From IMG/VR virus record IMGVR_UViG_3300023180_005138, positions 1 through 64,000 of that record: DNA of 64,000 nucleotides, one strand, 5' to 3'. The first letter of the stretch is position 1, and every line of letters starts with the position of its first letter. The DNA comes from a virus. Shown in pieces: positions 9,794-57,982 of this stretch. A program made the translations under genes and the position numbers. The notes under the pieces were generated by a model. It worked only from the letters and a program-made list of their open reading frames with translations, was not told the origin of the DNA and ran no database searches.

Positions 9794-10912
9794 CTATCCT
9801 AATTGATACTCTCTTACAGGTATTCTCTCCATATCAAAATTATTTAAATTTAAATAATTAGACCTTCCTATCTCTTTAACAATAGGAATAACTATACTAT
9901 CATTCCACAAATTCATTAAATTAGGAACATATTTTCTCATATGTTTATACACTAAAGAATCTTCATTATCACAAACATCAGATCTAAGATCATTTCCTAA
10001 TCCTGTGGGTTTTACTGCTTGCCATCTTTGATCAAACGGTAGTCTACAAGCCGCTTCTAAATGTTGTCTAATTGATCTGCCATCTTTTAGTATACTAGTT
10101 TCTTTATCGTTTAATCCTCCCAACACTTTATTTGTTGGAAGATTATACTCTTCCCAATAATTTTTAACTAAATAACACTGTTTTACATGTAATTTAGGTA
10201 GATCAGGGCTAGTAAAAAACCACTCTCCTGCTAAAGCAGCTGCGATTCCCCAGCCGCTTAATTTATTATACCAAGTTCCGTTTCTAACTGTTAGTACGGG
10301 TTTGTTCTCTCCATAGATTTGTCCAACATTGCCCTTCGCGTATATCTGACTATGGTTATACTCAGCGAAATCATAAGCCCCAAATCTTCTTATCATACCT
10401 ATGGTTCCATTAAAAGCGGTACCTACCCAACGATCTTTATTACAAAAATCAGTTATTATTTTTTCGTCTACGTGATTAATTGTAACTTTAGTTCCGGGCA
10501 TAAATCTAATATAGGTTTTTACTTTTTGAATAGCTAATTCTATATCTAGCAGGGCGGGGTCATTATTATTAAAACAGATTCGATTTATAACAATTTCGTC
10601 TAAAAAAGTTCTACTTTTTAGAAAACTTTGTAATACAGTTTCTGAGTCCGATCCTCCACTATAATATAAAATTAAATAGTCGTACTTATCTCTAAGTTGT
10701 CTACATCTTTCATCTAATAAATCTAAATAATTTTCTGTAGGCTCGTGGGACCAATCTACAGAATCCCAAAAACCACCGTCGTGAATCACTTCTAAATTAC
10801 TAAGAGTTTCTTTACTTAGTGCAACTTGTAACTTAGTAGAGTATATTTTTTTAGTAGTTTTACTGTGAACTTTAACTCTATCATCGTTTTGGACATGAAA
10901 TAAGTTTCTCAT
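9794..10912 (-). CDS. PP-loop ATP pyrophosphatase-like protein (copy 1)
   Basis: 372 residues. The PP-loop signature SGGSDS is at residues 85-90 after a YLILYY strand, so it should bind ATP and adenylate a substrate. It is not QueC, TilS or asparagine synthetase by its remaining motifs. It is clearly paralogous to the product at 18676-19749: both share HDGG/HDGQ-W, LDERCRQLR/LINRCRQLR, FNGTIG/FNGSIG and WFFTS/WFYTS...VKNY. In both arms the gene is paired head-to-tail with a DegT-family aminotransferase (here sharing one base at 10912). A joint role in making an amidated or amino-modified metabolite or sugar is inferred. Confidence 0.75.
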   Translation of the reverse strand: MRNLFHVQNDDRVKVHSKTTKKIYSTKLQVALSKETLSNLEVIHDGGFWDSVDWSHEPTENYLDLLDERCRQLRDKYDYLILYYSGGSDSETVLQSFLKSRTFLDEIVINRICFNNNDPALLDIELAIQKVKTYIRFMPGTKVTINHVDEKIITDFCNKDRWVGTAFNGTIGMIRRFGAYDFAEYNHSQIYAKGNVGQIYGENKPVLTVRNGTWYNKLSGWGIAAALAGEWFFTSPDLPKLHVKQCYLVKNYWEEYNLPTNKVLGGLNDKETSILKDGRSIRQHLEAACRLPFDQRWQAVKPTGLGNDLRSDVCDNEDSLVYKHMRKYVPNLMNLWNDSIVIPIVKEIGRSNYLNLNNFDMERIPVREYQLG

Positions 10913-12042
10913 TATAAAGAATTAGAAACCTCTATCATAATATCCTTATTTTCATCTGTTAAATACTCATGAAGGGGAAGAATAACTAATTCTTTTGCTA
11001 GTCGTTGTGCATATGGATACTCAACAGAGTCATAGTCAGAAAAACAAGGCATGTCAGGAAAACACGGATAAACACTAACACCTATTCCAACTTTTTTAAA
11101 CTCTCCTGCCGCTTCTTTTGCACTCATTTTAGAAGGAAAGAATCCAAATCCTGTACAAATATTATTTTCGCCAGTTAATCTTTCTTGTAGAATTTCTTTC
11201 TCAAATAGCTTATTATTTGCTCTACGCTGCTCTCTAACATCATTTTCTATTAGTATATCAATATCCTCTGCTATAATACGAGCAGTAGTATCGTCCATAG
11301 AACTTTTAGATGCAGGAGCAACAAACCCGTTTCTATTTTTATTGAATCCTTGCTGAGTTACTTCTTTCATATCATCTATTAGACGCTTACTAGAAGTGGC
11401 AACTGCCCCTCCTGTACCAGTGCTTGCTGGGTGTTTAGCAATATCAAAACTATAACAAGAAATATCTGCGTATCCCGGTTTATTACCTCCATCATTCATG
11501 TAGAATGCATTAGCAGCATCTTCAACAATCCACACATTTTTTGGGGCTATATTAGAAATCATTTCTACGTCTTGTACCCTTCCTAATAAATGAACGGGCA
11601 TAACAACCTTTGCAGTTGGAAATTTATCTAGAGCCTCTGCTAGACTATTAGGGCACATCATGGCGTCAGGTCCGTTATCACAGAATATAATTTTTCTGTT
11701 TATCCATAAAATGTTTTCAGGAGTAGCAATAAATCCCCAAGCGGGAATAATAACTTGATCACCTGGTTCTGTAGTTACTGCAAGTGCCGCTTGTATAGCA
11801 TCACTACCACAGTCAGTAAAATGCCAATGGTTAATTCCACTATGAAGTGTACATTTATTTGCTAAAGCGGCTCTACTAGGAGTATAATAATCGCTACTAG
11901 GCCCCGCACTTAGCCAGTCTGAGATAGTGTCTAGTCCTAATTCGTAGGCTTTTACATATCTATCTTTATATCTCTCGATTCTCTGTTTATATGCAAAATA
12001 TGGTACGTTTTGATTCTGATATTTATCTGGTATATCAACCAT
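10912..12042 (-). CDS. DegT/DnrJ/EryC1-type PLP aminotransferase (copy 1)
   Basis: 376 residues, fold type I. The PLP Lys is K203 in SFDIAKHPASTGTGGA; the cofactor-contacting VEDAANAF is at 173-180, and FTDCGSDAIQ (76-85) fits the phosphate-binding loop. The family transfers amino groups to keto sugars of nucleotide-activated glycans. It is paralogous to the product of 19749-20855 (both have H/YW-FTDC-DA-Q and the YSFD-K signature). It pairs with a PP-loop gene and ends in EVSNSL. A dTDP-keto-sugar substrate is possible because FdtA and RmlB are encoded in the other arm. Confidence 0.85.
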   Translation of the reverse strand: MVDIPDKYQNQNVPYFAYKQRIERYKDRYVKAYELGLDTISDWLSAGPSSDYYTPSRAALANKCTLHSGINHWHFTDCGSDAIQAALAVTTEPGDQVIIPAWGFIATPENILWINRKIIFCDNGPDAMMCPNSLAEALDKFPTAKVVMPVHLLGRVQDVEMISNIAPKNVWIVEDAANAFYMNDGGNKPGYADISCYSFDIAKHPASTGTGGAVATSSKRLIDDMKEVTQQGFNKNRNGFVAPASKSSMDDTTARIIAEDIDILIENDVREQRRANNKLFEKEILQERLTGENNICTGFGFFPSKMSAKEAAGEFKKVGIGVSVYPCFPDMPCFSDYDSVEYPYAQRLAKELVILPLHEYLTDENKDIMIEVSNSL

Positions 12043-18394: not shown

Positions 18395-18676
18395 ATGGCA
18401 GAATTTAAGCTCTGGGGTGTTTATACGCCTCTTTTAGAACAATGGACTCGTGATATGGGTAATCGCATGGAAGCCTATGTAGATACTAATGTTCATGATA
18501 TTGACGCTGAGTATTTTGATGAAGATGATCCTAGAGTCGCGCTATATGGATGGAAAAATTTTCCTCTATTTGTTGCTGTTAAGCATGGTCAACCTTTTCA
18601 AAAGGTAATTGGTAAACGTAACTGGGAATTTTATGAAGACTGGGTTAAAGGATTGGACTGGAAACGTGAGGCTTAA
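18395..18676 (+). CDS. small protein of unknown function
   Basis: 93 residues from the ATG at 18395; the frame is open further upstream, but that part overlaps the previous gene. Rich in Trp and acidic residues (LWGVYTPLLEQWTRD, DIDAEYFDEDDPRVALYGW, WEFYEDWVKGLDWKRE). Its TAA shares a base with the ATG of the PP-loop gene. Not recognised. Confidence 0.5.
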   Translation: MAEFKLWGVYTPLLEQWTRDMGNRMEAYVDTNVHDIDAEYFDEDDPRVALYGWKNFPLFVAVKHGQPFQKVIGKRNWEFYEDWVKGLDWKREA

Positions 18677-19749
18677 TGGAGTTTGACAGAGACTTTATCT
18701 TTTCTCATCAAAAAGTTTATAATATACACACAAATAAAAGTTATAATAGTAAAATATCTCTCATCTTATCTGATGAAACCCCTCAAAACTTAAGACTTCT
18801 TTTACATGACGGCCAGTGGGATCAATATAACTGGGAAATTGAACCGTCAGAATCTTTTGATAACTTATTAATTAATAGATGCCGACAACTAAGGCAGATG
18901 TACCCATATCTTACACTATACTTTAGTGGGGGAGCAGATTCTGAGACAATGGTACAATCATTTATAAAAGCTGGTATTGATCCTGATGAGATTGTAATAA
19001 ATGTATTCGAAGTCGCTAATGAAAATCCTTTACCTGATGTAGAATTAGCAATAAAAAAGCTAAACACCTATAAAAACTATTTACAAAAAACAAAGATTAC
19101 AATAAACCGATTCGGAAGAGAACTTCTGTTAAAGCTACTAGAAGGTAATCTTTGGTTTGACTCATACTTTAACGGGTCTATTGGTAATATCAGAAGGTTA
19201 ACCCTTCCAATTTATCAAGAGCTAGGGTTTTACAAAGATTCTGTACACTACACGGGTCATATTTTTGCTGATATGAAACCACAAGTAGAAGTAAAAAATA
19301 ATAAGTTTTATGCAAAAATGGGTCAAGGACTTAGCATAGGTCAATATGCAGACTGGTTTTATACAAGTTTAGATGCACCAGAGTTACAAATAAAACAAGC
19401 ACATTTAGTAAAAAACTATTTTAAAATACACGTTCCTACTGCTACTGGGTATTTAGGAGAACGTTCTAAGTATAAAGAAGATGTAATCAAAGCCTGTAGA
19501 TATAATTTTGACAACAGGTTTCAACCAGACAAGTTTGATGGGCTAGGATCAGATTTGCTAATTAAAAAGAAAACTGAAGATAGTGTAGTATATAATCTTA
19601 TGAAAAGCAAAGATCATCAACTATTTGATACCTACACTAGTAAAACTAAAGAACTTTTATCAGGAATAAAAAGTAAATCTCTAATTAGACCTGATACTTA
19701 TGATTTAGTGCCTATTAGTTATCAACAGGAATTTTATTTAGGTGAATAA
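18676..19749 (+). CDS. PP-loop ATP pyrophosphatase-like protein (copy 2)
   Basis: 357 residues with SGGADS at 84-89 after a YLTLYF strand. Paralogue of the left-arm protein at 9794-10912: the same blocks occur in the same order, including INRCRQLR, VQSFIKAG, FNGSIGNIRR, WFYTSLDAPEL and QAHLVKNYF. The PP-loop activates a carbonyl, carboxyl or nucleobase by adenylation. The aminotransferase gene follows, sharing one base, then two radical SAM genes, suggesting a multistep biosynthesis. The substrate is unknown. Confidence 0.75.
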   Translation: MEFDRDFIFSHQKVYNIHTNKSYNSKISLILSDETPQNLRLLLHDGQWDQYNWEIEPSESFDNLLINRCRQLRQMYPYLTLYFSGGADSETMVQSFIKAGIDPDEIVINVFEVANENPLPDVELAIKKLNTYKNYLQKTKITINRFGRELLLKLLEGNLWFDSYFNGSIGNIRRLTLPIYQELGFYKDSVHYTGHIFADMKPQVEVKNNKFYAKMGQGLSIGQYADWFYTSLDAPELQIKQAHLVKNYFKIHVPTATGYLGERSKYKEDVIKACRYNFDNRFQPDKFDGLGSDLLIKKKTEDSVVYNLMKSKDHQLFDTYTSKTKELLSGIKSKSLIRPDTYDLVPISYQQEFYLGE

Positions 19750-20855
19750 TGAAAAAAATAGCATTTATCCCTCATAAACAAAGATTAGAAAGACATAAAG
19801 TAGACTATTTAAGAGCCATGAGCGATGCTATGGACTATCCATATCAATCAGAAGATGGCAGAGATTTATCTCCTATACAACAAGCTCTTCATGATAAATG
19901 CGCAGAGCTTTCAGGCATTCCATATTGGACTTTTACAGATTGTTGTACTGATGCACTTCAAATTTCAATACATTGCTTAACTGAGCCTGGAGATATTATT
20001 GTAGTTCCCTCTTACGGATGGCGTGCTTTCGCAAATGCAGTGAAATTTATGAATCGAACTCTTCATTTTGTAGATTGTGATGAAACTGGTAATATTTCTA
20101 TAGATTCTTTAGAAGAGTATTGTAAAGAAGCAATTTTAGCTCCTGCAGCAGTAATTGCAGTACATAATTTTGGTACCGTTGTAGATTGTAGAAATATTAG
20201 AACTATTCTTGATAATGAAGGATTTGTAAATACTTGTATAATTGAAGATGCAGCTCCAGCATTTTATATGGGAGAGCCTTATGCTTATACCCCTGGTAGC
20301 TCGTCTGAAGCGGTATGCTATTCCTTCGACTTCACAAAATATCCAGGAACGCTTGGTAGCGGAGGAGCAATTGCAACACGTTTTGAGGACGTTAAGGAAA
20401 GGGTTTATCTTTCTTCAGCACATGGCAGAGCAAAATCTGGACAAATTATTACCTTTGGTACTAAGTCATATATGGATAATACCTCTTGTGCCGTTCTTTT
20501 AAAAGAGATTCAGTTGTTTGAGCAGTTTGAGTATAGAAAGCGTAGAGACGCAATTGCTACTTGGTATAAAAACAATCTTCCCTATCCAAACGTACCCGGC
20601 GATAATTATGTCTGGGAGAGATATACGATGGCAGTCTTTCCAGACCAGGTAGAGTCTGTTATAAAATCACTTAATGATGTAGGTTGTTTAGCAAGAACAT
20701 TCTTTAAAGAACCTCTCCATCAGTATGATTGGCTAAATGACAATAAAAAATGGTGCCCTATGACAGAACAGTTTACCGCTTCTACTGTTATGCTTCCTTC
20801 TCATCACTATTTAAAAGATGAAGAATTAGAAAGAATAGCAGAAGCCTTATGTTAG
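19749..20855 (+). CDS. DegT/DnrJ/EryC1-type PLP aminotransferase (copy 2)
   Basis: 368 residues. PLP Lys is K197 in YSFDFTKYPGTLGSGGA; IEDAAPAFYMGE (165-176) and FTDCCTDALQ (62-71) make the cofactor site. Paralogue of the left-arm aminotransferase, with the same unusual K(Q)R-ER start. Family members make amino sugars from keto sugars. It overlaps the downstream radical SAM gene by 7 nt. Together with FdtA and RmlB 5 kb downstream it could complete a 3-amino-3,6-dideoxyhexose route; this is inference. Confidence 0.85.
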   Translation: MKKIAFIPHKQRLERHKVDYLRAMSDAMDYPYQSEDGRDLSPIQQALHDKCAELSGIPYWTFTDCCTDALQISIHCLTEPGDIIVVPSYGWRAFANAVKFMNRTLHFVDCDETGNISIDSLEEYCKEAILAPAAVIAVHNFGTVVDCRNIRTILDNEGFVNTCIIEDAAPAFYMGEPYAYTPGSSSEAVCYSFDFTKYPGTLGSGGAIATRFEDVKERVYLSSAHGRAKSGQIITFGTKSYMDNTSCAVLLKEIQLFEQFEYRKRRDAIATWYKNNLPYPNVPGDNYVWERYTMAVFPDQVESVIKSLNDVGCLARTFFKEPLHQYDWLNDNKKWCPMTEQFTASTVMLPSHHYLKDEELERIAEALC

Positions 20856-21676
20856 ATCTAAGAATACTAGATGTAGTTGTATTATTAAATTGTAATCTTA
20901 ATTGTAGAGGTTGCAATAATTTTTGTGATCACAATGTAGCTGGTATAAGAAGTCTAGAAAACCTAAAACAAGATTTTATTAACTGGAAAACTAAAATTAA
21001 TCCTTCTAGAGTACAAATTATGGGAGGAGAAGCTTTATTACATAAAAATATATACGAAGTTATATATGCAGCTAGAGAGCATTTTCCTAATACTGACTTA
21101 AGATTATTTACTAATGGTCTTTTGTTAAATAAACACAAAGAATTAGTAAAAGTATTACAAGATACTAATTGTATGTTAGTAATTAGTGTACACTCTAAAG
21201 AGCCTAAGTATCTTAATTTTCTTTCTGATAGTGTACATTCTATTTTTAAAGGTTCTTTTAAAAATTCTGAAACAAAATCTTTAGTTTCTTATGGAACTGT
21301 ATATGAAAAAGAAGGTGTTACAATAGAATTTAGAGACATGACGAATCATTGGTATCAAACTTATAAAAATGGAGTAACCCCTTACCAAGATAATGACCCC
21401 AAAAAGTCCTGGGAAGCCTGTTATTTTAAATATTGCACTCAACTTTATGATGGAAAACTATGGAAATGCTCTCAAATAGCATATTTAGAGCCTTTAATGT
21501 CCCGTATCAATAATACAGAGTCTTGGGAAAAGTATAGAAATATTTATAAAGCATTAGATTATGATGGGTCAGATAAAGATTTTTTAGATTTTAGAACTAA
21601 TTTAAATAGAGAAGAGTTTATTTGTAATATGTGTCCGGCTAACCCAGAAATGCTGAGGTCAAAAAGTGTCTGGTAA
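20849..21676 (+). CDS. radical SAM protein
   Basis: 275 residues. CNLNCRGC near the N-terminus (about 15-22) is the CxxxCxxC that binds the 4Fe-4S cluster, and MGGEALL is the GGE strand contacting SAM. Four more cysteines towards the C-terminus (EACYFKYC, LWKCS, FICNMC) could bind an auxiliary cluster as in SPASM/Twitch proteins. Substrate unknown. It follows the PP-loop/aminotransferase pair and overlaps the next radical SAM gene by 11 nt. Confidence 0.85.
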   Translation: MLDLRILDVVVLLNCNLNCRGCNNFCDHNVAGIRSLENLKQDFINWKTKINPSRVQIMGGEALLHKNIYEVIYAAREHFPNTDLRLFTNGLLLNKHKELVKVLQDTNCMLVISVHSKEPKYLNFLSDSVHSIFKGSFKNSETKSLVSYGTVYEKEGVTIEFRDMTNHWYQTYKNGVTPYQDNDPKKSWEACYFKYCTQLYDGKLWKCSQIAYLEPLMSRINNTESWEKYRNIYKALDYDGSDKDFLDFRTNLNREEFICNMCPANPEMLRSKSVW

Positions 21677-22631
21677 AACTATTATTGGTATTAAACAAGA
21701 TGGAACAGTAGAAGAATTTTATCCTCAAGAATTAAGAGCTTCTAAGCTAAATGCTTGGAAAGGTTGGAAATGTTCTGTAGGACAATATAATATTGCTATA
21801 GCAGAAAATGGAGATATGAAAGGCGGAGATTGTGGAATCGGAGGACATCTAGGAAATATATATAAAGAGTTTCGTATTCCTAAGGAATGGCACACTTGTA
21901 CTATAGATTATTGTTCATGTTTTTTTGATATTGGAGTTCCTAAAGTATCTCAAGACCCCAACTCTGATTATAAAGAGTTTAGATCAAAAGAAATAGATTT
22001 AAAATTTGAATGGTTTTTGTCGGCTAAGTGTAACTATGCTTGTGAATATTGTCCTGATACGATTCATAATAATTTACCTCATAAAAATACATCAAAACAA
22101 GTATTTACCGGATTAGATAACTTATTTAAAAAACTAGATGGTAGAACATTTACAATGAGTCTTTGGGGCGGAGAGCCTACTATGTTTCCAGATTATATAG
22201 AAATTTGTAAAAAAATAAATGATTATGGAGCTAGAGTATTTACAACAACTAACGGAAGCAGAAGTGAAAAATACTTAGCAGAATTAATTCATCATAGCTG
22301 TTTATCTATATCAGTACATCAAGACTCTTATGATCAAGATAGAATGATAAATAATATAAAAGCTATAATAAGCGAAATAGATAAAAATAAGTTAGAAAAC
22401 TGGATAATGGTTAGGTGTATGGTTAAGCCAGGAAGTCTTTCTCACTGGAAAATTTTTATAGAAAGACTACAAAACGAAATACCCAACTTTACAAATAAAG
22501 CTAAATTAACATTAAACACCTTAGTAGGAGTATTACCTGATAGAAGTGATTGGACGGAAGATTTAATGGTAGGATATACAGAAAAAGAACTAAGTATATT
22601 AAAAAAATATGGTAGGTTGACAAATGTCTAA
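21666..22631 (+). CDS. radical SAM protein with N-terminal cysteine-rich domain
   Basis: 321 residues from a GTG. The first ~115 residues hold a cysteine-rich region (WKCSVG, GGDCGIGG, HTCTIDYCSCFFDIG) that could bind an auxiliary iron-sulphur cluster. The radical SAM core begins CNYACEYC, with LWGGEPTMFPD supplying GGEP. An auxiliary domain placed before the core is uncommon and recurs in the product of 47928-49013. Translationally coupled to neighbours on both sides (11- and 8-nt overlaps). Confidence 0.82.
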   Translation: MSGKTIIGIKQDGTVEEFYPQELRASKLNAWKGWKCSVGQYNIAIAENGDMKGGDCGIGGHLGNIYKEFRIPKEWHTCTIDYCSCFFDIGVPKVSQDPNSDYKEFRSKEIDLKFEWFLSAKCNYACEYCPDTIHNNLPHKNTSKQVFTGLDNLFKKLDGRTFTMSLWGGEPTMFPDYIEICKKINDYGARVFTTTNGSRSEKYLAELIHHSCLSISVHQDSYDQDRMINNIKAIISEIDKNKLENWIMVRCMVKPGSLSHWKIFIERLQNEIPNFTNKAKLTLNTLVGVLPDRSDWTEDLMVGYTEKELSILKKYGRLTNV

Positions 22632-23586
22632 TATATTAATTACTGGAGGACAAGGATTCATAGGGGCGGCAATTGCTGAAGTTCTTAAAAAAGAACATAC
22701 AGTAATTATTATGGATAAATGGTCAGAAAAGTATCCTGGGTACTCTGCTATTCATAGAGGTAAAGACGGACTAAAACCAGCTTCTATATTAGAAATGAAG
22801 CATAGAAAACAAGCAGCGGAATACAGAAATAATCAAATAAAAAATATATCTATTATAAAGTCTTGGACTTTTAATGAACATTTAGAAGATAAAATATCTC
22901 CTTTTTGGCCAGATTTAATTATAAATTGTGGTAGTTTGTCTGAGGCTATTTTATCTCAATATTTTAAGGAATTTACAGAAGACTCTATAGTAAGAGGCAT
23001 AGTTCAACTTAAATATATGTTTGATTGTCCTATACTTCATTTTTCTAGTTCCATGTCTTATGGATCTTGGACAGGGCCAATTAAAGAAGATGCTATGCAA
23101 AATCCAGTAGATTGGTACGGTAAATGTAAACAATTAAGTGAAATTTATATGGAAAGAGATAAAGATATAATAGTGCGTCCTATGCATGTTTATGGCTTCG
23201 GAGACGGTAAATTTCCAATGCCCATGAACATAGAAAGACAATATCAAAATGGCCGTCCTGTAACAGTAGAAGAGGCAGACTGCATCTATATTAAGGACCT
23301 TGTTGTAGTAATTAAAAAAATGATTGATAAATGGGTTCCAGGAGTGTATAATCTAAGTTCTGGATATCTTCGTTCTAAGGAAGTAATTAGAGAAGAATCT
23401 AAAAATATTCTTGGATATGAAATAGAAACAATTAATAAATCTGGTCCTACTGGTAAAGATAGAGGAACACTAGATTCTTCGAAACTAATGGAAGTTTATA
23501 ACTGGAACTCACAATATAAAAATTACAAAGAGACAATCATAGATTACTTTAATCAGTATAGGATAAATAATGAGAATAATAGTTAG
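22624..23586 (+). CDS. NAD-dependent epimerase/dehydratase (extended SDR)
   Basis: 320 residues. Rossmann motif ITGGQGFIGAAI at the start, an SSSMSYGS strand (catalytic Ser), and the YGKCK catalytic Tyr/Lys. A VRPMHVYGFGDG segment follows, as in nucleotide-sugar epimerases. Probably converts a nucleotide-activated sugar; exact activity not assignable. Overlaps the upstream radical SAM gene by 8 nt and the downstream bS21 gene by 17 nt. Confidence 0.85.
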   Translation: MSNILITGGQGFIGAAIAEVLKKEHTVIIMDKWSEKYPGYSAIHRGKDGLKPASILEMKHRKQAAEYRNNQIKNISIIKSWTFNEHLEDKISPFWPDLIINCGSLSEAILSQYFKEFTEDSIVRGIVQLKYMFDCPILHFSSSMSYGSWTGPIKEDAMQNPVDWYGKCKQLSEIYMERDKDIIVRPMHVYGFGDGKFPMPMNIERQYQNGRPVTVEEADCIYIKDLVVVIKKMIDKWVPGVYNLSSGYLRSKEVIREESKNILGYEIETINKSGPTGKDRGTLDSSKLMEVYNWNSQYKNYKETIIDYFNQYRINNENNS

Positions 23587-23899
23587 AAATAATGATCCTT
23601 TAAAGGCTTACAAGTTACTTAATAGAAAACTCCATGAAGCTAATATCTTTATAGAGTTAAAAGAAAGACAACACTATAAGTCTAAAGGAGAAAAAAGAAG
23701 AGAAAAGCGAAAAAGAGCTGTTGCTAGACAAAGAAAAGAGCATGCTCAAAAAGAAGCTATTCTATTAAAATTAGAAAACCAAATAACACGAGGAAATAAT
23801 GGTAGAAGAAACAACACAGGAAAACCAAATTCAAATAGAATGGGTTCCACTAACCGTAGCAGGAATCCTCAAAGTAAAGCTCCCAGAACCAACAGTTAA
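23570..23899 (+). CDS. rpsU: ribosomal protein bS21 homologue
   Basis: 109 residues. The first ~65 match bS21: IIVRNNDPLKAYKLLNRKLHEANIF, ELKERQHYKSKGEKRREKRKRAVARQRKE, i.e. the beta strand, helix and strongly basic tail helix. Bacterial bS21 is about 70 residues; here a ~40-residue Asn/Arg/Ser-rich tail is added, and its last 33 codons lie in a 101-nt overlap with the next gene. bS21 sits on the 30S subunit near the anti-Shine-Dalgarno and helps initiation. Phage copies are known and could bias ribosomes towards phage mRNA. Confidence 0.85.
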   Translation: MRIIVRNNDPLKAYKLLNRKLHEANIFIELKERQHYKSKGEKRREKRKRAVARQRKEHAQKEAILLKLENQITRGNNGRRNNTGKPNSNRMGSTNRSRNPQSKAPRTNS

Positions 23900-24491
23900 T
23901 TTCTTAACAGAACTTACAGATATTATTTTATCAGATGACCCTGATTTAGAAGGGCTATCATATGATGATAGGTTAGCTGGACAAATTAAAGCAGGAAAAC
24001 AACGAGAAATACCTCTTACTGAAGAAACTAGAAAATCAAAAGCTATGTCTAATTTCTTAACTTTTTCTTCTAATATTTGTCTTGAATGGATGAATGGTTA
24101 TCTACACTATAATCCAAAAGCACGTACTACTTGGAATGATACCATAAGTGTAGATATATATGAATTTTGGGTAAATAAACAGTTAACTGGTGATTATAAC
24201 CCTCTTCATAATCATTGTCAGCCTTTTGCAGCTCTTAGTTCGGTAATTTACTTGAAAGTTCCAGAACAGATTTCAAATAATAACGATTTAAAAAGCGATG
24301 ACGGAATGATTAAGTTTTTGTGGAGCGATAGAGGAAATCCTCATATGTTAGAATTTCCGGGCATGTTAACAGTAAAACCAGAAGTAGGAGATTATTATGT
24401 TTTTCCTGCTTGGCTAAATCATGAAGTATCACCCTTTAGAGGAGAAGGGGAGAGACGTTCTTTAAGTTGGAACGCAAAGCTTTGGGTTTAA
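23799..24491 (+). CDS. 2-oxoglutarate/Fe(II) oxygenase
   Basis: 230 residues. NPLHNHCQPFAALSSVIYL gives the first iron-binding His region, and FPAWLNHEVSPFRGEGERRSLSWNAKL the distal His and the 2-oxoglutarate-binding Arg, matching the 2OG-FeII_Oxy_5-type family common in marine phages. Substrate unknown. The ATG has GAGGAAATA upstream, so the start is sound despite lying inside the bS21 reading frame. Confidence 0.85.
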   Translation: MVEETTQENQIQIEWVPLTVAGILKVKLPEPTVNFLTELTDIILSDDPDLEGLSYDDRLAGQIKAGKQREIPLTEETRKSKAMSNFLTFSSNICLEWMNGYLHYNPKARTTWNDTISVDIYEFWVNKQLTGDYNPLHNHCQPFAALSSVIYLKVPEQISNNNDLKSDDGMIKFLWSDRGNPHMLEFPGMLTVKPEVGDYYVFPAWLNHEVSPFRGEGERRSLSWNAKLWV

Positions 24492-24832: not shown

Positions 24833-25066
24833 GTGTCGCAAAAATCATATAAAATAACTATAATGCTAAAGAGAGGAATACTCGATAACGCAGGAAAAGC
24901 GACAACTAAAGCTTTAAATAATTTAGGGTTTAAAACTGTAGAAGATGTTAGAATTGGAAGATGCATCTATCTTACTACAGACAAAGATATTGAACCCATA
25001 GCTCAGTCTCTTTATAATAGTGTTATGGAAGAGTATGAAGTTAAGTGTCTTGATGACGTAGACTGA
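24833..25066 (+). CDS. purS: PurS subunit of FGAM synthase
   Basis: 77 residues from GTG at 24833, chosen because AAGGGG lies six bases upstream. The pattern YKITIMLKRGILDNAGKATTKALNNLGF, VEDVRIGRCIYL and NSVMEEYEVK matches PurS (about 80 residues). With PurL and PurQ of the host it makes the enzyme that converts FGAR to FGAM in purine synthesis. Phage-encoded purS is known from cyanophages. Its stop codon abuts the acceptor piece of the tmRNA. Confidence 0.9.
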   Translation: MSQKSYKITIMLKRGILDNAGKATTKALNNLGFKTVEDVRIGRCIYLTTDKDIEPIAQSLYNSVMEEYEVKCLDDVD

Positions 25067-25451: not shown

Positions 25452-25465
25452 ATTTTGAGGGACAA

Positions 25466-25861
25466 ATGTTATACGAAATCTTAAAATTTCCTACTGTTTC
25501 TGATGACAGAGGCAATCTAACCTATATTAATAATCTTGAACAAATTCCTTTTGAAATTAAAAGAATGTTTACTGTTGATAGCGTCCCTGCCGGAGCTGTC
25601 AGAGGCGGTCATGCACATCATCAGCTTCAAGAAGTCTTAATTCCAATTTATGGAAGATTTATCGCTTATTTATCAGACGGAAAAACATCAGAAGAAGTAG
25701 AGATGATTAATCCTAGAACTGGTTTATTATTATATCCTCATATTTGGAGAGAAATAAAAGGGTATACAAAAGGAGCAATTTGTTTATCTCTTTGCTCTAT
25801 GACTTTTGATGAGTCTGACTATATTCACACATGGGAAGAATTTAAAAAAATATATGTCTAA
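25466..25861 (+). CDS. fdtA: FdtA-type dTDP-keto-hexulose 3,4-ketoisomerase (cupin)
   Basis: 131 residues. RGNLTYINNLEQIPFEIKRMFTV, then VRGGHAHHQLQEVLIPIYG and LYPHIWREIKGYTKGAICLSLCS match the FdtA/WxcM cupin family, with the HAHH active-site cluster. It isomerises dTDP-4-keto-6-deoxyglucose (the RmlB product) to a 3-keto sugar for transamination by a DegT enzyme. RmlB is encoded next (8-nt overlap) and DegT enzymes in both arms, so the core route is present. Confidence 0.88.
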   Translation: MLYEILKFPTVSDDRGNLTYINNLEQIPFEIKRMFTVDSVPAGAVRGGHAHHQLQEVLIPIYGRFIAYLSDGKTSEEVEMINPRTGLLLYPHIWREIKGYTKGAICLSLCSMTFDESDYIHTWEEFKKIYV

Positions 25862-26792
25862 AACTGTATTAGTAACTGGTGGATTAGGATTTATTGGTAA
25901 ACATTTTGTAAGTGAGTTGTTACATAAGGGCCATAACGTGATCAATATTGATTGTTACACTTATGCAGCGGATAGACACACTTCAAAAATATTTAAACAA
26001 AAGCCAAACTATATAGAATCAAGAGAATATATTCACAATTTAGGATATTTACCTATATGTGATTATGTAGTACATTTTGCAGCTGAGTCCCACGTAGATA
26101 ATTCTATTGCTGATAGCTCTAAATTTATTCATAGTAATATTACAGGTACACACCATATATTAGAATTATTAAGACGTATGCCAGAGAGTCATCGTCCTCA
26201 TTTAATTCATATTAGCACAGACGAAGTATATGGAGATTCTCAACCTAATCAACAGTTTCTAGAGACTGATATATTAAATCCTTCAAGTCCATATTCTGCC
26301 TCAAAAGCAGCAGCGGAACATTTAGTTACTTCTTATGCTAGAACATATGATATATCTTATAATATAGTTAGAATGACAAATTGTTTTGGTAATGACCAAT
26401 ACCCAGAAAAACTTATTCCTACTATTTGTATGAATCTTAAAAAAGATAAGCCTATACCAATTCACGGAACTGGAAATTATGTAAGAACTTGGTTATGGGT
26501 ACAAGACGCGGTAAAAGCTATAGAAACTATTATACAAACTGGCAATAAAAATGAAATTTATAACGTTTCAGGAGACTGGAGATTTTCTGTGCTAGAAATT
26601 GTTGACTTTTTCTGTAAAGTAGCAGGAAAAGGAGAGACAAAACTAGTAAAAAATAGACCTGGGCAAGATTTAGACTATCATATTAATGATGATAAAATTA
26701 GAAAACTTGGCTGGAATCCTACAAAAGGACCTGCTGAACTAGCAGAGGTCATCTATAGAAACTTTAATCCTAATAGATTTATAACAAAATAA
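25854..26792 (+). CDS. rmlB: dTDP-glucose 4,6-dehydratase-like enzyme
   Basis: 312 residues from the ATG at 25854 (ATGTCTAA junction with fdtA). VTGGLGFIGKHF binds NAD; AAESHVDNSI and ISTDEVYGD are diagnostic for RmlB, with YSASKAA giving the catalytic Tyr/Lys. MTNCFGNDQYPEKLIP is also conserved. It makes dTDP-4-keto-6-deoxyglucose. No RmlA thymidylyltransferase is seen, so dTDP-glucose would come from the host or another part of the genome. Slightly shorter than bacterial RmlB (about 350). Confidence 0.9.
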   Translation: MSKTVLVTGGLGFIGKHFVSELLHKGHNVINIDCYTYAADRHTSKIFKQKPNYIESREYIHNLGYLPICDYVVHFAAESHVDNSIADSSKFIHSNITGTHHILELLRRMPESHRPHLIHISTDEVYGDSQPNQQFLETDILNPSSPYSASKAAAEHLVTSYARTYDISYNIVRMTNCFGNDQYPEKLIPTICMNLKKDKPIPIHGTGNYVRTWLWVQDAVKAIETIIQTGNKNEIYNVSGDWRFSVLEIVDFFCKVAGKGETKLVKNRPGQDLDYHINDDKIRKLGWNPTKGPAELAEVIYRNFNPNRFITK

Positions 26793-27481
26793 TGAATATT
26801 TATATAAGAGTTAGCGAAAACCAAAAAACAATTAGTGGCGTTGATAGATGGAATTCTTATGATAAAAGAATGACACTTAAAAAGTGTTGGATGTCTCTTA
26901 TGATTAATGTTACTAGTGAAGATTTTATTACTATATATCACCACGATGTAAGAGATGAGACTCTTAACTGGTTATCTAATAAATGTTCAACTCTCCACAA
27001 TTTTGTAAAGATAAACTCATTAGAAGAAAGTTTTTTAGTGCCTTTAGAAGATATGAAGTCTAATCTAAAAGCAGAAAAGGATAAAAACAAATTATACGCG
27101 TTATTAGAGGATGATTATCTTTGGAATGGAAATGCGTTAAGAACTATAAAAGACGCTACTAAACATTGGAAAGGTTTTATAGCCCCTAATGATACTCCTG
27201 CTAATTATAAAGATTTTACACAAGCGCATATATTATTAGGACAAGATAGACATTGGAGAACTACTAACTATATTTCTTGGAATTTAATAGGCACACAAGA
27301 AATATTTTCTACTTTTATAGACGATATTATAGCTTCTGGTACTGATATAAAAGAATTAAATAATATTTTAAATAAAACTAAATGTATAAATCCATTACCA
27401 GGAGTCGCCACTCATTGTAAACAAGAAGATATGACTCCTTTAGTAAACTGGGATTATGTATGGGACGGAATTAAATTATGA
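26792..27481 (+). CDS. glycosyltransferase-like protein of unknown specificity
   Basis: 229 residues. YALLEDDYLWNGNAL carries an acidic D-D motif like the metal site of GT-A enzymes. FIAPNDTPANY and PGVATHCKQEDMTPLVNW at the C-terminus resemble small GT-like proteins. Position between RmlB and an epimerase supports a sugar role. Identity at family level is weak. Confidence 0.5.
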   Translation: MNIYIRVSENQKTISGVDRWNSYDKRMTLKKCWMSLMINVTSEDFITIYHHDVRDETLNWLSNKCSTLHNFVKINSLEESFLVPLEDMKSNLKAEKDKNKLYALLEDDYLWNGNALRTIKDATKHWKGFIAPNDTPANYKDFTQAHILLGQDRHWRTTNYISWNLIGTQEIFSTFIDDIIASGTDIKELNNILNKTKCINPLPGVATHCKQEDMTPLVNWDYVWDGIKL

Positions 27482-28497
27482 AAAAAGTATATATTACAGG
27501 AGCTGCCGGTCTTATAGGATCTGAGCTTGTTAGATTGTTTGTTTCTGTAGGAGCAAAAGTCAAATGTTGTGACACATTAATTGGAGGTCTTGACTCTAAT
27601 TTAACTAGATTTAAGAACAATATTGATTATAAACCAATTGATATTTTAGATTTTAAGTCTTTAAAAGAGCATATGGAAGGGGTAGACGCAGTATTTCATT
27701 GTGCTGCTTTACCATATGAAGGGTTATCAGTATTTTCCCCTAAAGTTGTAGCAGAAAATATTGTAGGAGGTACTGTTAGTGTAGCTTCTGCTTGTATTGC
27801 TAACAATGTTAAGAAACTATTTAACTTTTCTTCAATGGCTAGATATGGAGCACAAGAACCTCCTTTTACAGAAGATATGCCTAGAAAACCAGAAGACCCT
27901 TATGGACTAGCTAAAGCACAAGCAGAAGAACACCTAGAGCTACTAAGTAAATTACATGGATTAAGTTTTACTACTATTGTACCACACAACGTTATTGGAG
28001 TAGGACAAAGATATATGGACCCTTATAGAAATGTAGTAGCGATCATGATTAATCGAGTATTACAGAAAAAAACAATTATTATATACGGAGACGGACAACA
28101 AAAAAGAAGTTTTTCTAACATTCAAGATTGTGGAAGAGCTATTTGGCATTTGTATGAGTCCGAAAAAGATTTAACAGGACAAGTGTTTAATATAGGCCCT
28201 GATGACAATGAAACGACTATTAAAGATCTAGCACATCGAATCGGGCATCATTGTGGTATTTATCCAAGAATTGATTACTACCCAGATAGACCAGCAGAAG
28301 TTAAAAATGCTTGGTGTTCTTCAGAGAAAATTAAAACGCAATTTAATTATAATACTACTAAAAGTCTAGATGATACAATAGTAGAAATGATAAACTGGAT
28401 TTCAGAAAGAGGACCTGAGCCTTTTGTTTATGACTCTCTTTCCTTAGAATTTATTACAGAAAATACTCCCGCAACTTGGGTAGAAAGGTTAATTTAA
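27478..28497 (+). CDS. NAD-dependent nucleotide-sugar epimerase/dehydratase
   Basis: 339 residues. ITGAAGLIGSELV binds NAD; HCAALPYEG and FNFSSMARYG then YGLAKAQAE give Ser, Tyr and Lys. VFNIGPDDNETTIKDLA near the C-terminus is typical of GalE/UDP-glucuronate-type enzymes. A 40-residue tail extends beyond the usual end. Shares 4 nt with the previous gene; part of the sugar block. Confidence 0.87.
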   Translation: MKKVYITGAAGLIGSELVRLFVSVGAKVKCCDTLIGGLDSNLTRFKNNIDYKPIDILDFKSLKEHMEGVDAVFHCAALPYEGLSVFSPKVVAENIVGGTVSVASACIANNVKKLFNFSSMARYGAQEPPFTEDMPRKPEDPYGLAKAQAEEHLELLSKLHGLSFTTIVPHNVIGVGQRYMDPYRNVVAIMINRVLQKKTIIIYGDGQQKRSFSNIQDCGRAIWHLYESEKDLTGQVFNIGPDDNETTIKDLAHRIGHHCGIYPRIDYYPDRPAEVKNAWCSSEKIKTQFNYNTTKSLDDTIVEMINWISERGPEPFVYDSLSLEFITENTPATWVERLI

Positions 28498-29238
28498 ATG
28501 GCTACTATTATTTGTCCATATGTGTTTCCAGAAGAGATAGCAGGATTAAAAGACTCACTTTGGGAGTTAGATACTATATTTGAACAAGATACGTCAAAAA
28601 TAGGATCAGATATGATGTATCAAAAACTTTGGAAACAAACCGATGATGACATTATCATTCTTCATGCGGATATGCACCCTTTACCAGAAGATACAACCCA
28701 TATGTGGTATAAAGAATTAGTTAATTACGCAGAAAAATATCCAGAAGCAGGTATGTTAGGATGTAAGCTTCTTTATCCTGCTAAGAATGAAGAAGGTAAG
28801 TTTATTATTCAACACGCAGGAGGAAAAATTAATGAAGACGGAACTGCCGATCATTTTGGAAGCGGTTTTAGGATGGAAGATAAGAAATTCTGGAAAGCTC
28901 CAGAAGTTGATACTGGACAGTATGATAAAATTAGAGAAGTCGCTTGGTGCACCTTTGGAGGGTTATATATTAGAAGAAAAGTACTTGATGAAATAGGAGA
29001 TTTTGATGTGTCTTTTGAGTATACATACGAGAGAGATGTAGATTATTGTATGGAAACTCGTAAAGCTGGTTGGAAAATATATATGACTCCTTCAACTTTG
29101 ATTCACTGGGAAAGTAAAGATAATAAAAGAGTTATGACACAAAATCTTTATGACGCTCAAGCAAGAAATAAAGAAAGACTTAAAGAAAAATGGCAAGGAA
29201 CCGAATGGTTTAAAACCGTAGATACAGAGGTAGCTTAA
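28498..29238 (+). CDS. GT2-family glycosyltransferase
   Basis: 246 residues, a GT-A fold. DDDIIILHADMHPLPED provides the metal-binding acidic motif, GGLYIRRKVLDEIGDFDVSF the acceptor-site motif, and ERDVDYCMETRKAGWKIYMTPSTLIHW the catalytic-base region. Similar to rhamnosyltransferase-type enzymes. The start ATG follows the epimerase stop directly. Probably adds the sugar made by the neighbouring enzymes; acceptor unknown (host glycan, virion protein or DNA). Confidence 0.82.
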   Translation: MATIICPYVFPEEIAGLKDSLWELDTIFEQDTSKIGSDMMYQKLWKQTDDDIIILHADMHPLPEDTTHMWYKELVNYAEKYPEAGMLGCKLLYPAKNEEGKFIIQHAGGKINEDGTADHFGSGFRMEDKKFWKAPEVDTGQYDKIREVAWCTFGGLYIRRKVLDEIGDFDVSFEYTYERDVDYCMETRKAGWKIYMTPSTLIHWESKDNKRVMTQNLYDAQARNKERLKEKWQGTEWFKTVDTEVA

Positions 29239-30189: not shown

Positions 30190-31003
30190 AAAATCGGTAA
30201 TTTCTTTAATTAGTTATGATGCACATTTACTCCCTAATAGTATAAAATCTTACTATGATTACGTAGACGAGATTGTACTAGGATTAGATAAAGATAGATT
30301 TACTTGGAGTCACCAATCTTTTACATTTGACGAAAATAAACTTTGGGCAGAATTAAAAAAGATCGACACAAAAGGCAAAATTTCAGTAATTGAAGAGCAT
30401 TTTCATCCAAGTGGGCTTGCTATTGAAAATGATAACTATGAAAGAAATGTTTTAAAATCTCATTGCACTAATGACTGGATTATGTCTTTTGATGCAGACG
30501 AAGAATTGATTAATCCAAAAGAGTTCTTTTACTCTTGGTGTCCTTTGTTTGAGCCTTATTATAAAAAGTACGATTTAACTTTTACTTGGTTTTTGCCTTG
30601 GAAAGAGTTTGAAGAAGATATTCTTATGATTGCAGAGGAAGATACAAGTTTTATTAAATCAGAAAGACAAGGATTCGCTACATATAAAAATAATCAATTT
30701 ACCTATGCTAGATGGACTAATAATCAATTTAGAATAGAAACTCCTCTGTGTATCTTACATTGGAGTCTTTGCCGAAACGAAAAAGACTTAAATCAAAAAA
30801 TTAATAATATTGGTCACTCTGATAGAGTAAAAGAAGATCCTTTTTTTGATATTTGGAAACAGACTACTTTACAAAATTATGAACAATTAAGAAATTTTAA
30901 GACTTCTGGGCTAGGAGATCCAAAGCAGTGGGCTAGATTAACTAAAATTAAAAGAGCCGAATTAAATGATATATGTAAAATGGAAGCACAGAGGGTATAC
31001 TAA
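30182..31003 (+). CDS. glycosyltransferase-like protein (GT-A fold)
   Basis: 273 residues. It starts VISLISYDAHLLPNSIKSYYDYVDEIVLGLD, as in GT2-like enzymes. IMSFDADEELINP carries the DxD metal site, and LHWSLCRNEKDL the downstream His. Acceptor unknown. Ends in one base shared with the next glycosyltransferase, indicating coupled translation. Confidence 0.72.
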   Translation: MIKKSVISLISYDAHLLPNSIKSYYDYVDEIVLGLDKDRFTWSHQSFTFDENKLWAELKKIDTKGKISVIEEHFHPSGLAIENDNYERNVLKSHCTNDWIMSFDADEELINPKEFFYSWCPLFEPYYKKYDLTFTWFLPWKEFEEDILMIAEEDTSFIKSERQGFATYKNNQFTYARWTNNQFRIETPLCILHWSLCRNEKDLNQKINNIGHSDRVKEDPFFDIWKQTTLQNYEQLRNFKTSGLGDPKQWARLTKIKRAELNDICKMEAQRVY

Positions 31004-32166
31004 TGATAACAGTTGAAATATTAGGGAAATTTTTTGACAATCACTCACTAGCTATAATTAATAGAAAGCTAGCTGTTGGATTAAGTAAAAATAAAAACAT
31101 AAATACTATTATTACTCCGTTAGATTCTTATGATAGTTCCCACAAAGTAAATAAATCAGAAATTAAAGTTTTAAAGGGTATTTTACAAAAATCCGAAAAT
31201 GTAGAACCTGATATTCAAATTAGACACACCTATCCTCCTATTTGGAGATGGCCTGTTTCTGAAAAAACTAAAATTTTATTTATTCAACCTTGGGAATATT
31301 CAAAAGTACCATTTGAATGGCAATACAAATGGGAAAATTTTGCTGACGGAGTAATTACTCCTAGTATGTGGACAGGAGATAAATTTTTAGAAGGAGGGTT
31401 AGATCCAAATAGACTTTTTGTAGTTCCAAATGGTTATGACCCAACTATATTTAATACTAAACCGGAAGAGTCAAGGTTTTTTGACGCTAAAAAATTCACA
31501 TACTTATTTGTAGGTAATCATCAAGCTAGAAAAGGTCTAGATACCTTATTAAATGTTTGGAAAGAGTCTTTTGTTAGAGCTGATAACGTACAACTATTTA
31601 TTAAAGATACTCCTCAAATTTATGGACAGAACAATTTATTATCCCAAATTCTAAGTTTGCAATATCATGTAGACTGTGGTAAAATTATATATAATTCAGA
31701 CCTATTATCTGATCAAGATATGGCAAATATCTATAAAAATTCTAAAGTAGTAGTTCATCCATATAGAGGCGAAGGGTTTGGTATGCATATACAAGAATCT
31801 GTAGCGTGCGGTGCCTATCCTATTATTAGTGATCAAGGACCTACAGAAGAGTTTATTCCTAGAGAAATTGGCGCTAGAATCACAACGAACAGAAAACATG
31901 TTAATATTACAGACCCAGAGCTTTTTGCCCTAAAACCTGGGGATAGTGTTACTAATATGGGTGGACATGCTTGGATTCTTGATCCTGATGCAAATAATTT
32001 AAAGTTTCAAATGAAATTAATCTATCAGCATCACGAAAGAAAAAGAATTTTAGAAACTGTAAAGAACTATAATAACCCTAATACTTGGGACGCTATTATT
32101 GAAAATTACATTAATGTAATTACAGGAGTATATAATAATGAACAAAGACCAAGAAGATACACTTAG
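31003..32166 (+). CDS. GT4-like (GT-B fold) glycosyltransferase
   Basis: 387 residues. The C-terminal nucleotide-sugar domain includes FVVPNGYDPTIFN, YLFVGNHQARKGLDTLLN and the E-x7-E motif in GEGFGMHIQESVACGAYPII. The N-terminal domain binds the acceptor. Retaining enzyme by family. Its end overlaps the iron-sulphur carrier gene by 29 nt. Confidence 0.88.
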   Translation: MITVEILGKFFDNHSLAIINRKLAVGLSKNKNINTIITPLDSYDSSHKVNKSEIKVLKGILQKSENVEPDIQIRHTYPPIWRWPVSEKTKILFIQPWEYSKVPFEWQYKWENFADGVITPSMWTGDKFLEGGLDPNRLFVVPNGYDPTIFNTKPEESRFFDAKKFTYLFVGNHQARKGLDTLLNVWKESFVRADNVQLFIKDTPQIYGQNNLLSQILSLQYHVDCGKIIYNSDLLSDQDMANIYKNSKVVVHPYRGEGFGMHIQESVACGAYPIISDQGPTEEFIPREIGARITTNRKHVNITDPELFALKPGDSVTNMGGHAWILDPDANNLKFQMKLIYQHHERKRILETVKNYNNPNTWDAIIENYINVITGVYNNEQRPRRYT

Positions 32167-56208: not shown

Positions 56209-57177
56209 TTGAAAATTTTACACAGTGCCGACTGGCATATTAACCTACATAAGAAAAAAGTTCCCGCTAGTTGGAGTGCGAATCGTTTCAGACTTTTCTT
56301 TGAAGAGATTCATAAATTAGAAGAAACACATGATGTTCACTTCTTATCTGGTGATATTTTTGATAGAAAACCTGAACCAGATGAAATTTGTTTATTTCTT
56401 AGATTCGCAAATGCAGTAAAAATTCCAACCTATATTATCCCAGGAAACCATGAAGCTACGAAGAAAGGCGAAACATTCCTTGAACATTTCCATGAACAAC
56501 ATGCTATTACGAATCCAAACGTGGTTCTTATTACAAAAAATCAACGTGAAACTATACGGGGTCAAAGCGTATATTTCTATCCCTATGGAGAAATGCAAAA
56601 AGAAAATCTTCTGGATTTTGAGGGAGATGAAATTCTTGTTACTCATATTCGTGGAGAAGTACCGCCCCATATCACGGCTGAATATGATTTTGAAAAGCTT
56701 CGTCCCTGGAAACTCATACTTCTTGGTGACATACATTTTGCTCATCGTTACTTGGATTATCCTGCTTGGTATAGTGGTTCTCCGATGAATGTAAGTTTTG
56801 ATAGAGATGACTCTAGAGACTATGGAGTTAACTCTATTGATTTTAGATCTATTGATGATTATGAAGTATCTTTTCTACCACTAAAACTTCCAAAGCTAGT
56901 AAGAAAGACTCTACAAGTAGGAGAAGAAATGGTTCCTGATAATTTTAATCATGTAATATATGAAGTAACTGGTTCAGTAGATCAACTTGCTAAAGTACAA
57001 AACTCAGAACTACTTGATAAAAAGATTGCTCTAAAGCCAACTGAAAACTCAAAACTAGACTTAAAAAATATGAGTCTTATTGAAGAACTTAGAGCATATT
57101 TAGAATACACAAAAATTTCAAATACAGAAGAAATTATAAAAGACTTTCAAGACTTAAATATAAATGTTGGAACTTAA
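56209..57177 (+). CDS. sbcD: SbcD/gp47-type nuclease subunit
   Basis: 322 residues from TTG (GGAG eight bases before). Metallophosphoesterase motifs in order: HSADWHIN, GDIFDRKP, IPGNHEA, VTHIRGE and LLGDIHFAH. Partner of SbcC in the Mre11-Rad50 type complex that processes DNA ends and feeds recombination-dependent replication. A PP-loop gene is inserted between it and sbcC. Confidence 0.93.
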   Translation: MKILHSADWHINLHKKKVPASWSANRFRLFFEEIHKLEETHDVHFLSGDIFDRKPEPDEICLFLRFANAVKIPTYIIPGNHEATKKGETFLEHFHEQHAITNPNVVLITKNQRETIRGQSVYFYPYGEMQKENLLDFEGDEILVTHIRGEVPPHITAEYDFEKLRPWKLILLGDIHFAHRYLDYPAWYSGSPMNVSFDRDDSRDYGVNSIDFRSIDDYEVSFLPLKLPKLVRKTLQVGEEMVPDNFNHVIYEVTGSVDQLAKVQNSELLDKKIALKPTENSKLDLKNMSLIEELRAYLEYTKISNTEEIIKDFQDLNINVGT

Positions 57178-57982
57178 TAGAGTATATTGGGAATATGATG
57201 ATAGAAACTGGTGGCGACCAACTCCATACTCTCAAGCAAAAGTAACTTGTCCTAGATATAAAAGATATGGACCTACAATAAGACATGATTTATTTACTCT
57301 TGTAGAAAAATTTGTAGAAAAGTATCCTAAATATAACTATTATATAGCTATGAGTGGCGGCATTGATTCTGAAATCACTGCTGAAACTTTTTTTCAATTA
57401 GGTGTACCCTTTGAAGCTGTCAGCTTATCGCTATTCGAAGCACAAAATGCACATGACTTAATATATGTAAAACATTTTTGTCAACAAAGAAGTATAAACT
57501 ATAATTTTATAGATTTAGATTTAACTGATTTTGTAAATAATGTAATACCAAAAGCAGTAGAGTTTGGACAGTTTACTAATTCTTTGAGTCAAGTTGCCTT
57601 AACATATCTTTTTGAATTTATGGATGAAAAAGATATTCTTATTTTTTCTGGACATAACCCTGACTTTTGTTTAAAAGGTATAGGATGGTGGGAAGACTCA
57701 CCAAACTTGGTAAAGTATGCAATAAATACTGATAATAATTTTTTTACTTTTACAAGTTTAGAACCTATTTTTATGCACTATCTAATAAACTACGACCCAA
57801 GGCAGCCTGGAGATAAAGATAATACTTTTATATATAACTGTTATCCTAATCTAAAAAAGAGAACAAAAAGAACTGGATGGGAAGTATTAGGGCATATTCA
57901 AGATAAATATAAAACACTATTAGACACTCCTGTATTACTAGGAAGTGATACATATGAACAGGTATTTTTAACATGGAAATAA
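57164..57982 (+). CDS. PP-loop ATP pyrophosphatase-like protein (third)
   Basis: 272 residues. SGGIDS at 64-69 after the YYIAM strand. Shorter than the two paired PP-loop proteins and without their W(F/Y)TS-VKNY blocks, so a more distant relative. LIFSGHNPDFCLKGIGWWEDSP suggests a second nucleotide or substrate contact region. Lies between sbcD (14-nt overlap) and sbcC (10-nt overlap), so co-expressed with DNA repair. Activated substrate unknown. Confidence 0.7.
   Translation: MLELNRVYWEYDDRNWWRPTPYSQAKVTCPRYKRYGPTIRHDLFTLVEKFVEKYPKYNYYIAMSGGIDSEITAETFFQLGVPFEAVSLSLFEAQNAHDLIYVKHFCQQRSINYNFIDLDLTDFVNNVIPKAVEFGQFTNSLSQVALTYLFEFMDEKDILIFSGHNPDFCLKGIGWWEDSPNLVKYAINTDNNFFTFTSLEPIFMHYLINYDPRQPGDKDNTFIYNCYPNLKKRTKRTGWEVLGHIQDKYKTLLDTPVLLGSDTYEQVFLTWK

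Follow-up and report, generated by a model that had tools for sequence, protein, structure and literature searches.

A marine-type phage known from an IMG/VR record of 117,378 bases (IMGVR_UViG_3300023180_005138) carries two gene pairs, each joining a DegT aminotransferase to a PP-loop protein, that are well supported as separately inherited cassettes of one phage gene family and not as copies duplicated in this genome. Each cassette may combine the aminotransferase with an amide ligase that lacks a glutaminase, and together the two would make a sugar amide for a host or virion glycan; we place the probability of this reading at about 0.45. An amidated or amino sugar had been floated as a joint product in the first-pass annotation of the sequence, and is still the best reading here. 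The four open reading frames assigned to the pairs by that annotation are present in the window—the stretch analysed, positions 1 to 64,000 of the record—with one pair in each arm. Together with a remote third PP-loop frame that the annotation had overlooked, they are:

9794..10912, minus strand: pair A PP-loop protein (372 aa), with an AsnB/beta-lactam-synthetase-like predicted fold and no glutaminase Cys2
10912..12042, minus strand: pair A DegT aminotransferase (376 aa; PF01041, 3.2e-36), the first gene of pair A
18676..19749, plus strand: pair B PP-loop protein (357 aa)
19749..20855, plus strand: pair B DegT aminotransferase (368 aa; PF01041, 1.7e-41)
57164..57982, plus strand: remote PP-loop frame (272 aa; hmmsearch E 4.2e-18 with an iterated profile)

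The pairs are true paralogues, as had been proposed. The PP-loop proteins share 40% identity over 316 columns (E 8e-67) and the DegT proteins 28% over 378 (E 1e-43), the latter scoring 125.7 and 143.1 bits against PF01041, for which the Pfam cut-off is 19.8. Both junctions are formed by a one-base TAATG overlap. The gene order, earlier described as the same in both, proves to differ: read 5' to 3', pair A runs from DegT to PP-loop and pair B from PP-loop to DegT. Across the 117,378-base record there are two DegT genes, both in pairs, and two close PP-loop copies, those of pairs A and B. The remote frame at 57164-57982, whose single-sequence hhalign alignment spans the motif region only, belongs to a second PP-loop cluster of 31 ORFs from 23 loci.

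Phylogeny does not bear out the idea that a duplication was retained in this genome, as each copy is sister to pairs of other phages (designated here by L-numbers, which denote loci on viral contigs related to the window genes). In a careful tree comprising 28 of the 67 PP-loop rows in a wider one, PP-loop A joins L018 with bootstrap/SH-aLRT support of 99/99, and PP-loop B joins L004 and two L013 copies (98/97); a constraint that makes A and B sisters lowers the log likelihood by 160 units (p-AU 1.1e-63). DegT A likewise groups with L018 (100) and DegT B sits within a clade of 22 phage rows, with a cost of 427 units for forced sisterhood (p-AU 1.8e-100), in a tree where cellular outgroups are few (7 of 45 rows) and some branches are long. 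A branch with SH-aLRT 99 nonetheless divides the 24 DegT rows that include A and B from the 21 others, which indicates that both DegTs derive from one phage family that divided long ago. The PP-loop copies also share a clade (9 rows, 99/97). Where the first-pass annotation had set duplication against independent acquisition from unrelated clades, the clades are indeed separate, yet they belong to a single phage family. That these two clades hold both pairs is the one point in favour of a duplication in the phage's own lineage with later divergence and inversion, since the pairs could share a very deep common ancestor. Such an event is scarcely credible, however: the A and B copies each lie nearer to other phages than to each other, the AU tests reject sisterhood for both genes and thus any recent duplication, and the gene order differs between the pairs.

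The nearest kin of pair A is a pair in the same order on the contig L018/L019 (DegT 73%, PP-loop 53%); the two loci yield the same matches and are in effect one phage. Among ORFs of at least 80 aa, only 3 of 20 on L018—PP-loop, DegT and a radical SAM gene—share a gene cluster with the window, versus 15 of 19 on L013. Clamp-loader-like AAA and Cpn10 genes lie near the L018 pair, and the window phage encodes a polymerase of family A whose best-listed matches are phages of around 102-114 kb, at 41%. A same-order pair in an otherwise unrelated phage argues that the pair travels as a cassette. Pair B is shared with a group of syntenic phages, in which DegT B finds matches at 62-93%. At the site of pair A, between exonuclease and lysozyme, both genes are missing from L004, and L016/L017 carry only a PP-loop gene, which falls on the B side of the tree. 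L021/L022 carry one PP-loop copy per arm, and as these come from different clades the arms appear to be sites that are filled independently.

Other features of the window and its relatives are recorded here in their own right. The minus arm holds a curli-like operon at 3083-6361 (minus strand; CsgG PF03783 5e-48, a FecR domain at 4.3e-8 and a weak curlin repeat), and such an operon is described for pelagimyophages in an excerpt of earlier work (PMC7029224). Membership of that group, at which the curli genes hint, was set aside in view of the polymerase matches given above. A permuted tmRNA gene of alphaproteobacterial type lies at 24986-25499 (plus strand). Near Fpg and Hsp20 genes, relatives carry other ORFs resembling PP-loop proteins or asparagine synthases (L004 4967-7469, L011 2578-5080, L013 10611-11936), and the window has none there; the L004 ORF has a cysteine at residue 2 and matches PF00733 at 0.003, below the cut-off. 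A 437-aa L004 ORF considered by eye as an adenylate-forming ligase matched no Pfam family.

The PP-loop family proved to be widespread among viral contigs, although its recovery depended on the query. Single proteins or two sequences gave no match there, and a motif pattern search returned 11 stretches, of which 3 (L004, L011, L013) encode clear relatives. By contrast, a five-sequence alignment led to 116 candidate stretches, 71 of which yielded a total of 70 loci, and iterated hmmsearch brought in 135 PP-loop ORFs at E 1e-3. The main cluster comprises at least 94 ORFs from 73 loci, all viral, a count that includes near-duplicates; raw locus counts are further inflated by overlap (L013 with L014/L087, L004 with L015/L101, L011 with L020, and L018/L019 with L128/L129). 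L051, L069 and L070 each hold five profile-matched ORFs if remote types are counted. Beyond these contigs, no relative was found in INPHARED with four different members as queries, among plasmids (PLSDB) with the query used, or in GTDB contigs with two alignments and strict peptide patterns, which distant cellular members may escape. A literature search using mostly narrow word sets found no paper on the family.

The earlier view that known PP-loop families fit poorly holds at the level of sequence. Of three Pfam families matched at E 0.01—SCF, ATP_bind_3 and NurA—each was hit weakly by 1 of 63 dereplicated members, which we read as chance or the bare motif. PF00733 (Asn_synthase) is absent from the matches of the 63 members at that threshold, and is absent in the phage's own record. 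Judged by such profile searches, no Pfam model covers the family. One of the 63 members matches phosphoadenosine phosphosulfate reductase in PHROGs (7e-4), and a sequence search of the PDB gave no significant match for the PP-loop proteins. Searched by predicted structure, BFVD returned as best matches uncharacterised proteins of uncultured Caudovirales phages, with E values down to 3e-16.

AlphaFold2 predicted PP-loop B with a pLDDT of 90.7 and PP-loop A with 87.1, each at pTM 0.90, and both predicted structures contain the synthetase-domain fold of the AsnB/beta-lactam synthetase group. In VIA-align, the B model reaches Z 11.1 to AsnB 1ct9 (273 residues, 5.1 A) and 10.3 to beta-lactam synthetase, and the A model reaches 10.8 and 10.4 to asparagine synthetases. 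The best LarE row stands at Z 7.8 for both models, such that asparagine synthetase rows lie about 3 above LarE/NadE. Foldseek agrees with this ranking for B (E 2.1e-4), where MnmA and LarE also appear; for A, Foldseek alone places LarE first (E 1.6e-4). The SGGxDS motif is intact in both window copies and throughout the family, with S84, G85, G86 and D88 in all 63 members and S89 in 62. Lysines are conserved at two further positions, K201 (59 members) and K286 (58). Enzymes of the AsnB/beta-lactam synthetase group have a catalytic lysine in a C-terminal loop, for which K286 is a candidate counterpart: counted along the sequence, the conserved lysine lies 202 and 216 residues from the motif in the phage proteins, versus 215 in Escherichia coli AsnB. 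Sequence comparison with AsnB found nothing alike beyond the motif. None of the 63 aligned members has the glutaminase Cys2, and no column holds a cysteine in more than 17 of them. Taken together, the AsnB-like predicted fold, the SGGxDS motif with K286 and the lack of a conserved cysteine or Cys2 point to an amide former that is probably ATP-dependent, has no glutaminase of its own and uses ammonia or an amine as nucleophile.

The DegT partners resemble sugar aminotransferases of known structure. Among solved structures the best match for DegT B is WbpE, which also ranks near the top for DegT A; QdtB, a 3-aminotransferase whose substrate is dTDP-3-keto-6-deoxyhexose, is also among the solved relatives, though not the best match (3frk is only seventh for DegT B). 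Motifs with the PLP-binding aspartate and Schiff-base lysine are intact in both window copies and in all but three (L115, L118 and L122) of the 47 full-length proteins in the phage family. Around pair B lie further genes, among them the sugar enzymes of its operon:

18395..18676, plus strand: small protein (about 93 aa) immediately preceding pair B, which resembles thioredoxin by eye, with no CxxC and no Pfam match
20849..21676, plus strand: radical SAM enzyme 1 (PF04055, 3.2e-11), which adjoins B-type DegT in other phages
21666..22631, plus strand: radical SAM enzyme 2 (PF04055, 1.4e-11), found near B-type DegT in other phages
22624..23586, plus strand: SDR/epimerase (PF01370, 1.4e-13)
23799..24491, plus strand: 2OG-Fe(II) oxygenase (PF13759, 5.3e-20)
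25466..25861, plus strand: FdtA/QdtA-type 3,4-ketoisomerase of the retaining type (PF05523, 3.7e-37; H49, H51, R95)
25848..26792, plus strand: NDP-sugar 4,6-dehydratase, RmlB-like (PF16363, 9.2e-54; PF01370, 9.9e-53)
27478..28497, plus strand: NDP-sugar epimerase/dehydratase (PF01370, 5.2e-43)
28498..29238, plus strand: family-2-like glycosyltransferase (PF13641, 7.7e-4, weak and below the cut-off)
31003..32166, plus strand: glycosyltransferase group 1 (PF00534, 1.9e-13)

An arginine at the place of R95 marks retaining 3,4-ketoisomerases according to a review excerpt (PMC2943079). By this rule the FdtA-type enzyme would be retaining and would lead to 3-keto-6-deoxy-glucose. Among B-type loci, an FdtA-type gene was seen only in the window and its closest relatives (L013/L014 and L111).

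B-type DegT genes occur on 45 contigs once known duplicates are set aside, on 34 after dereplication at 98%, and on 24 with 1.5 kb available to either side. In 8 of these 24 loci a same-strand PP-loop gene is found within 1.5 kb (six upstream, two downstream), and the majority of PP-loop loci have no DegT, so the two are not obligate partners and their partnership is loose. The commonest partner of B-type DegT is the SDR/epimerase: of 19 dereplicated loci whose sequence extends at least 2.5 kb past DegT, 15 have a gene like that at 22624-23586 on the downstream side, the exceptions being L024, L096, L104 and L115. The interval between DegT and SDR is variable: in some loci it is empty, in others it holds a PP-loop gene or up to two radical SAM genes. 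The PP-loop genes that adjoin B-type DegT come from several separate clades, and thioredoxin-like small ORFs lie upstream of many of these DegT genes (41 ORFs, near-duplicates included). An NDP-sugar dehydrogenase cluster is present in 14 PP-loop loci, near-duplicates counted; no such dehydrogenase was found in the 117,378-base record.

At L084 (3-12352), a DegT/radical SAM/SDR cluster follows large ORFs that look by eye like tail fibres, hinting at virion decoration. An ORF of about 297 aa resembling a secreted solute-binding protein is often near PP-loop genes, in 29 loci between L030 and L083 (NMT1-like match of 3.2e-4, below the cut-off). In L057, L059, L063, L066 and L067, a short ORF of about 307 aa resembling a PLP aminotransferase lies near PP-loop genes (Aminotran_1_2, E 0.0033, below the cut-off), and may represent a second PP-loop/PLP partnership.

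How might the two enzymes of a cassette cooperate? DegT would aminate a keto sugar, probably one linked to a nucleotide. The PP-loop ligase would use ATP to adenylate a carboxylate, which would then be joined to ammonia or an amine, leaving an amide on DegT's sugar: a uronamide, or else an N-acyl amide at the amine introduced by DegT. This chemistry is read from predicted fold and motif. SDR, radical SAM and oxygenase enzymes might diversify the sugar, which glycosyltransferases would attach to a glycan of the host or the virion. The two cassettes may, as the first-pass annotation suggested, serve two related substrates. The FdtA, RmlB, epimerase and glycosyltransferase genes in the pair B operon favour a sugar amide.

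Analogy with characterised systems leads in the same direction. Amidotransferases of the AsnB family normally carry a glutaminase domain. In Porphyromonas gingivalis, according to an excerpt (PMC7468200), wbpE is followed directly by wbpS, a member of the AsnB family, and cells deleted for wbpS no longer have the uronamide on a linking sugar. WbpE and WbpS are most likely the closest working model for the DegT/PP-loop pair, as in each case a sugar aminotransferase gene lies near an AsnB-fold candidate for amide formation. The phage PP-loop protein, however, has neither Cys2 nor a Pfam match, and unlike the Wbp/Vim pathway, with its UDP-3-keto-HexNAcA substrate and uronamide product, the phage record yielded no uronic-acid dehydrogenase. 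Asparagine synthetase B, beta-lactam synthetase and carbapenam synthetase provide the best VIA matches and share SGGxDS and a lysine at similar spacing, but the phage proteins lack a glutaminase and PF00733, and resemble them in sequence only at the motif. The RmlB-FdtA/QdtA-QdtB route to dTDP-3-amino-3,6-dideoxyhexoses finds a parallel in the RmlB-like and retaining-type FdtA genes of the pair B operon and in QdtB among the solved DegT relatives, whereas the limitation of FdtA to the closest B relatives and the ranking of QdtB set the phage apart. The cultured marine Pelagibacter phage Mosig has a DegT among radical SAM genes annotated as MoaA, together with a carbamoyltransferase; its DegT nevertheless falls outside the A+B family in the tree, and the four INPHARED queries found no member of the PP-loop family there.

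Rather than sharing a product, DegT and PP-loop could be independent cargo of hypervariable islands that collect small-molecule enzymes, which we regard as unlikely but as a serious contender. It would explain why no PP-loop gene lies near DegT in 16 of the 24 B-type loci, where its slot is empty or taken by radical SAM genes, and why PP-loop genes are also found next to genes for desaturases, oxygenases, other PLP enzymes or solute-binding-protein-like products. It fits less readily with retention of the DegT-to-PP-loop order of pair A in an otherwise unrelated phage, with the one-base overlap in both window pairs, or with the arrival of PP-loop genes of several clades beside B-type DegT.

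Two further alternatives assign the pairs a different chemistry. That the PP-loop protein is a sulfur transferase of the LarE/MnmA kind, thiolating a sugar, cofactor or tRNA, is suggested by the Foldseek results, yet seems improbable. LarE has a conserved catalytic cysteine (a Cys176 mutant is among the structures listed), for which the scattered cysteines of the phage family offer no counterpart, and its match is both shorter and lower than those of the asparagine synthetases (about 160-173 residues at Z 7.8 versus 237-279 at Z 10.4-11.1). Modification of phage DNA bases in place of a glycan is a long shot. QueC and QueE of the 7-deazaguanine pathways are indeed PP-loop and radical SAM enzymes, respectively, and a radical SAM gene has a weak QueE-like PHROG match (2.5e-3). 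Against this, the QueC model is matched by none of the 63 members in Pfam at E 0.01 and by neither window PP-loop protein in NCBIfam, QueC is absent among the VIA matches listed, and the pair B operon encodes dTDP-sugar enzymes and glycosyltransferases.

Formation of a sugar amide is thus the reading we prefer. What would be new is an undescribed phage PP-loop family with DegT partners, as the sugar-amide chemistry itself is probably of a known kind. No Pfam model represents this family, and the searches described above met it in no cultured phage, plasmid or GTDB contig, yet it occupies dozens of viral loci. A broader generalisation, possible though doubtful, is that these phage-private, fast-spreading, glutaminase-free amide ligases serve as interchangeable modules: beside DegT they would acylate or amidate amino sugars, and copies adjoining other PLP, radical SAM and oxygenase genes would make further amides, with phages building unusual glycans and small molecules of their own and not following host pathways. 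If its members do form amides on sugars, the family would also offer small ATP-dependent amide ligases for biocatalysis. The exchange of radical SAM genes, a PP-loop gene or nothing beside one DegT-SDR core provides a natural series by which genes might be linked to sugar structure. If the PP-loop proteins do form sugar amides, phages would possess a glycan amide chemistry of their own, with bearing on superinfection exclusion, receptor change and decoration of the virion.
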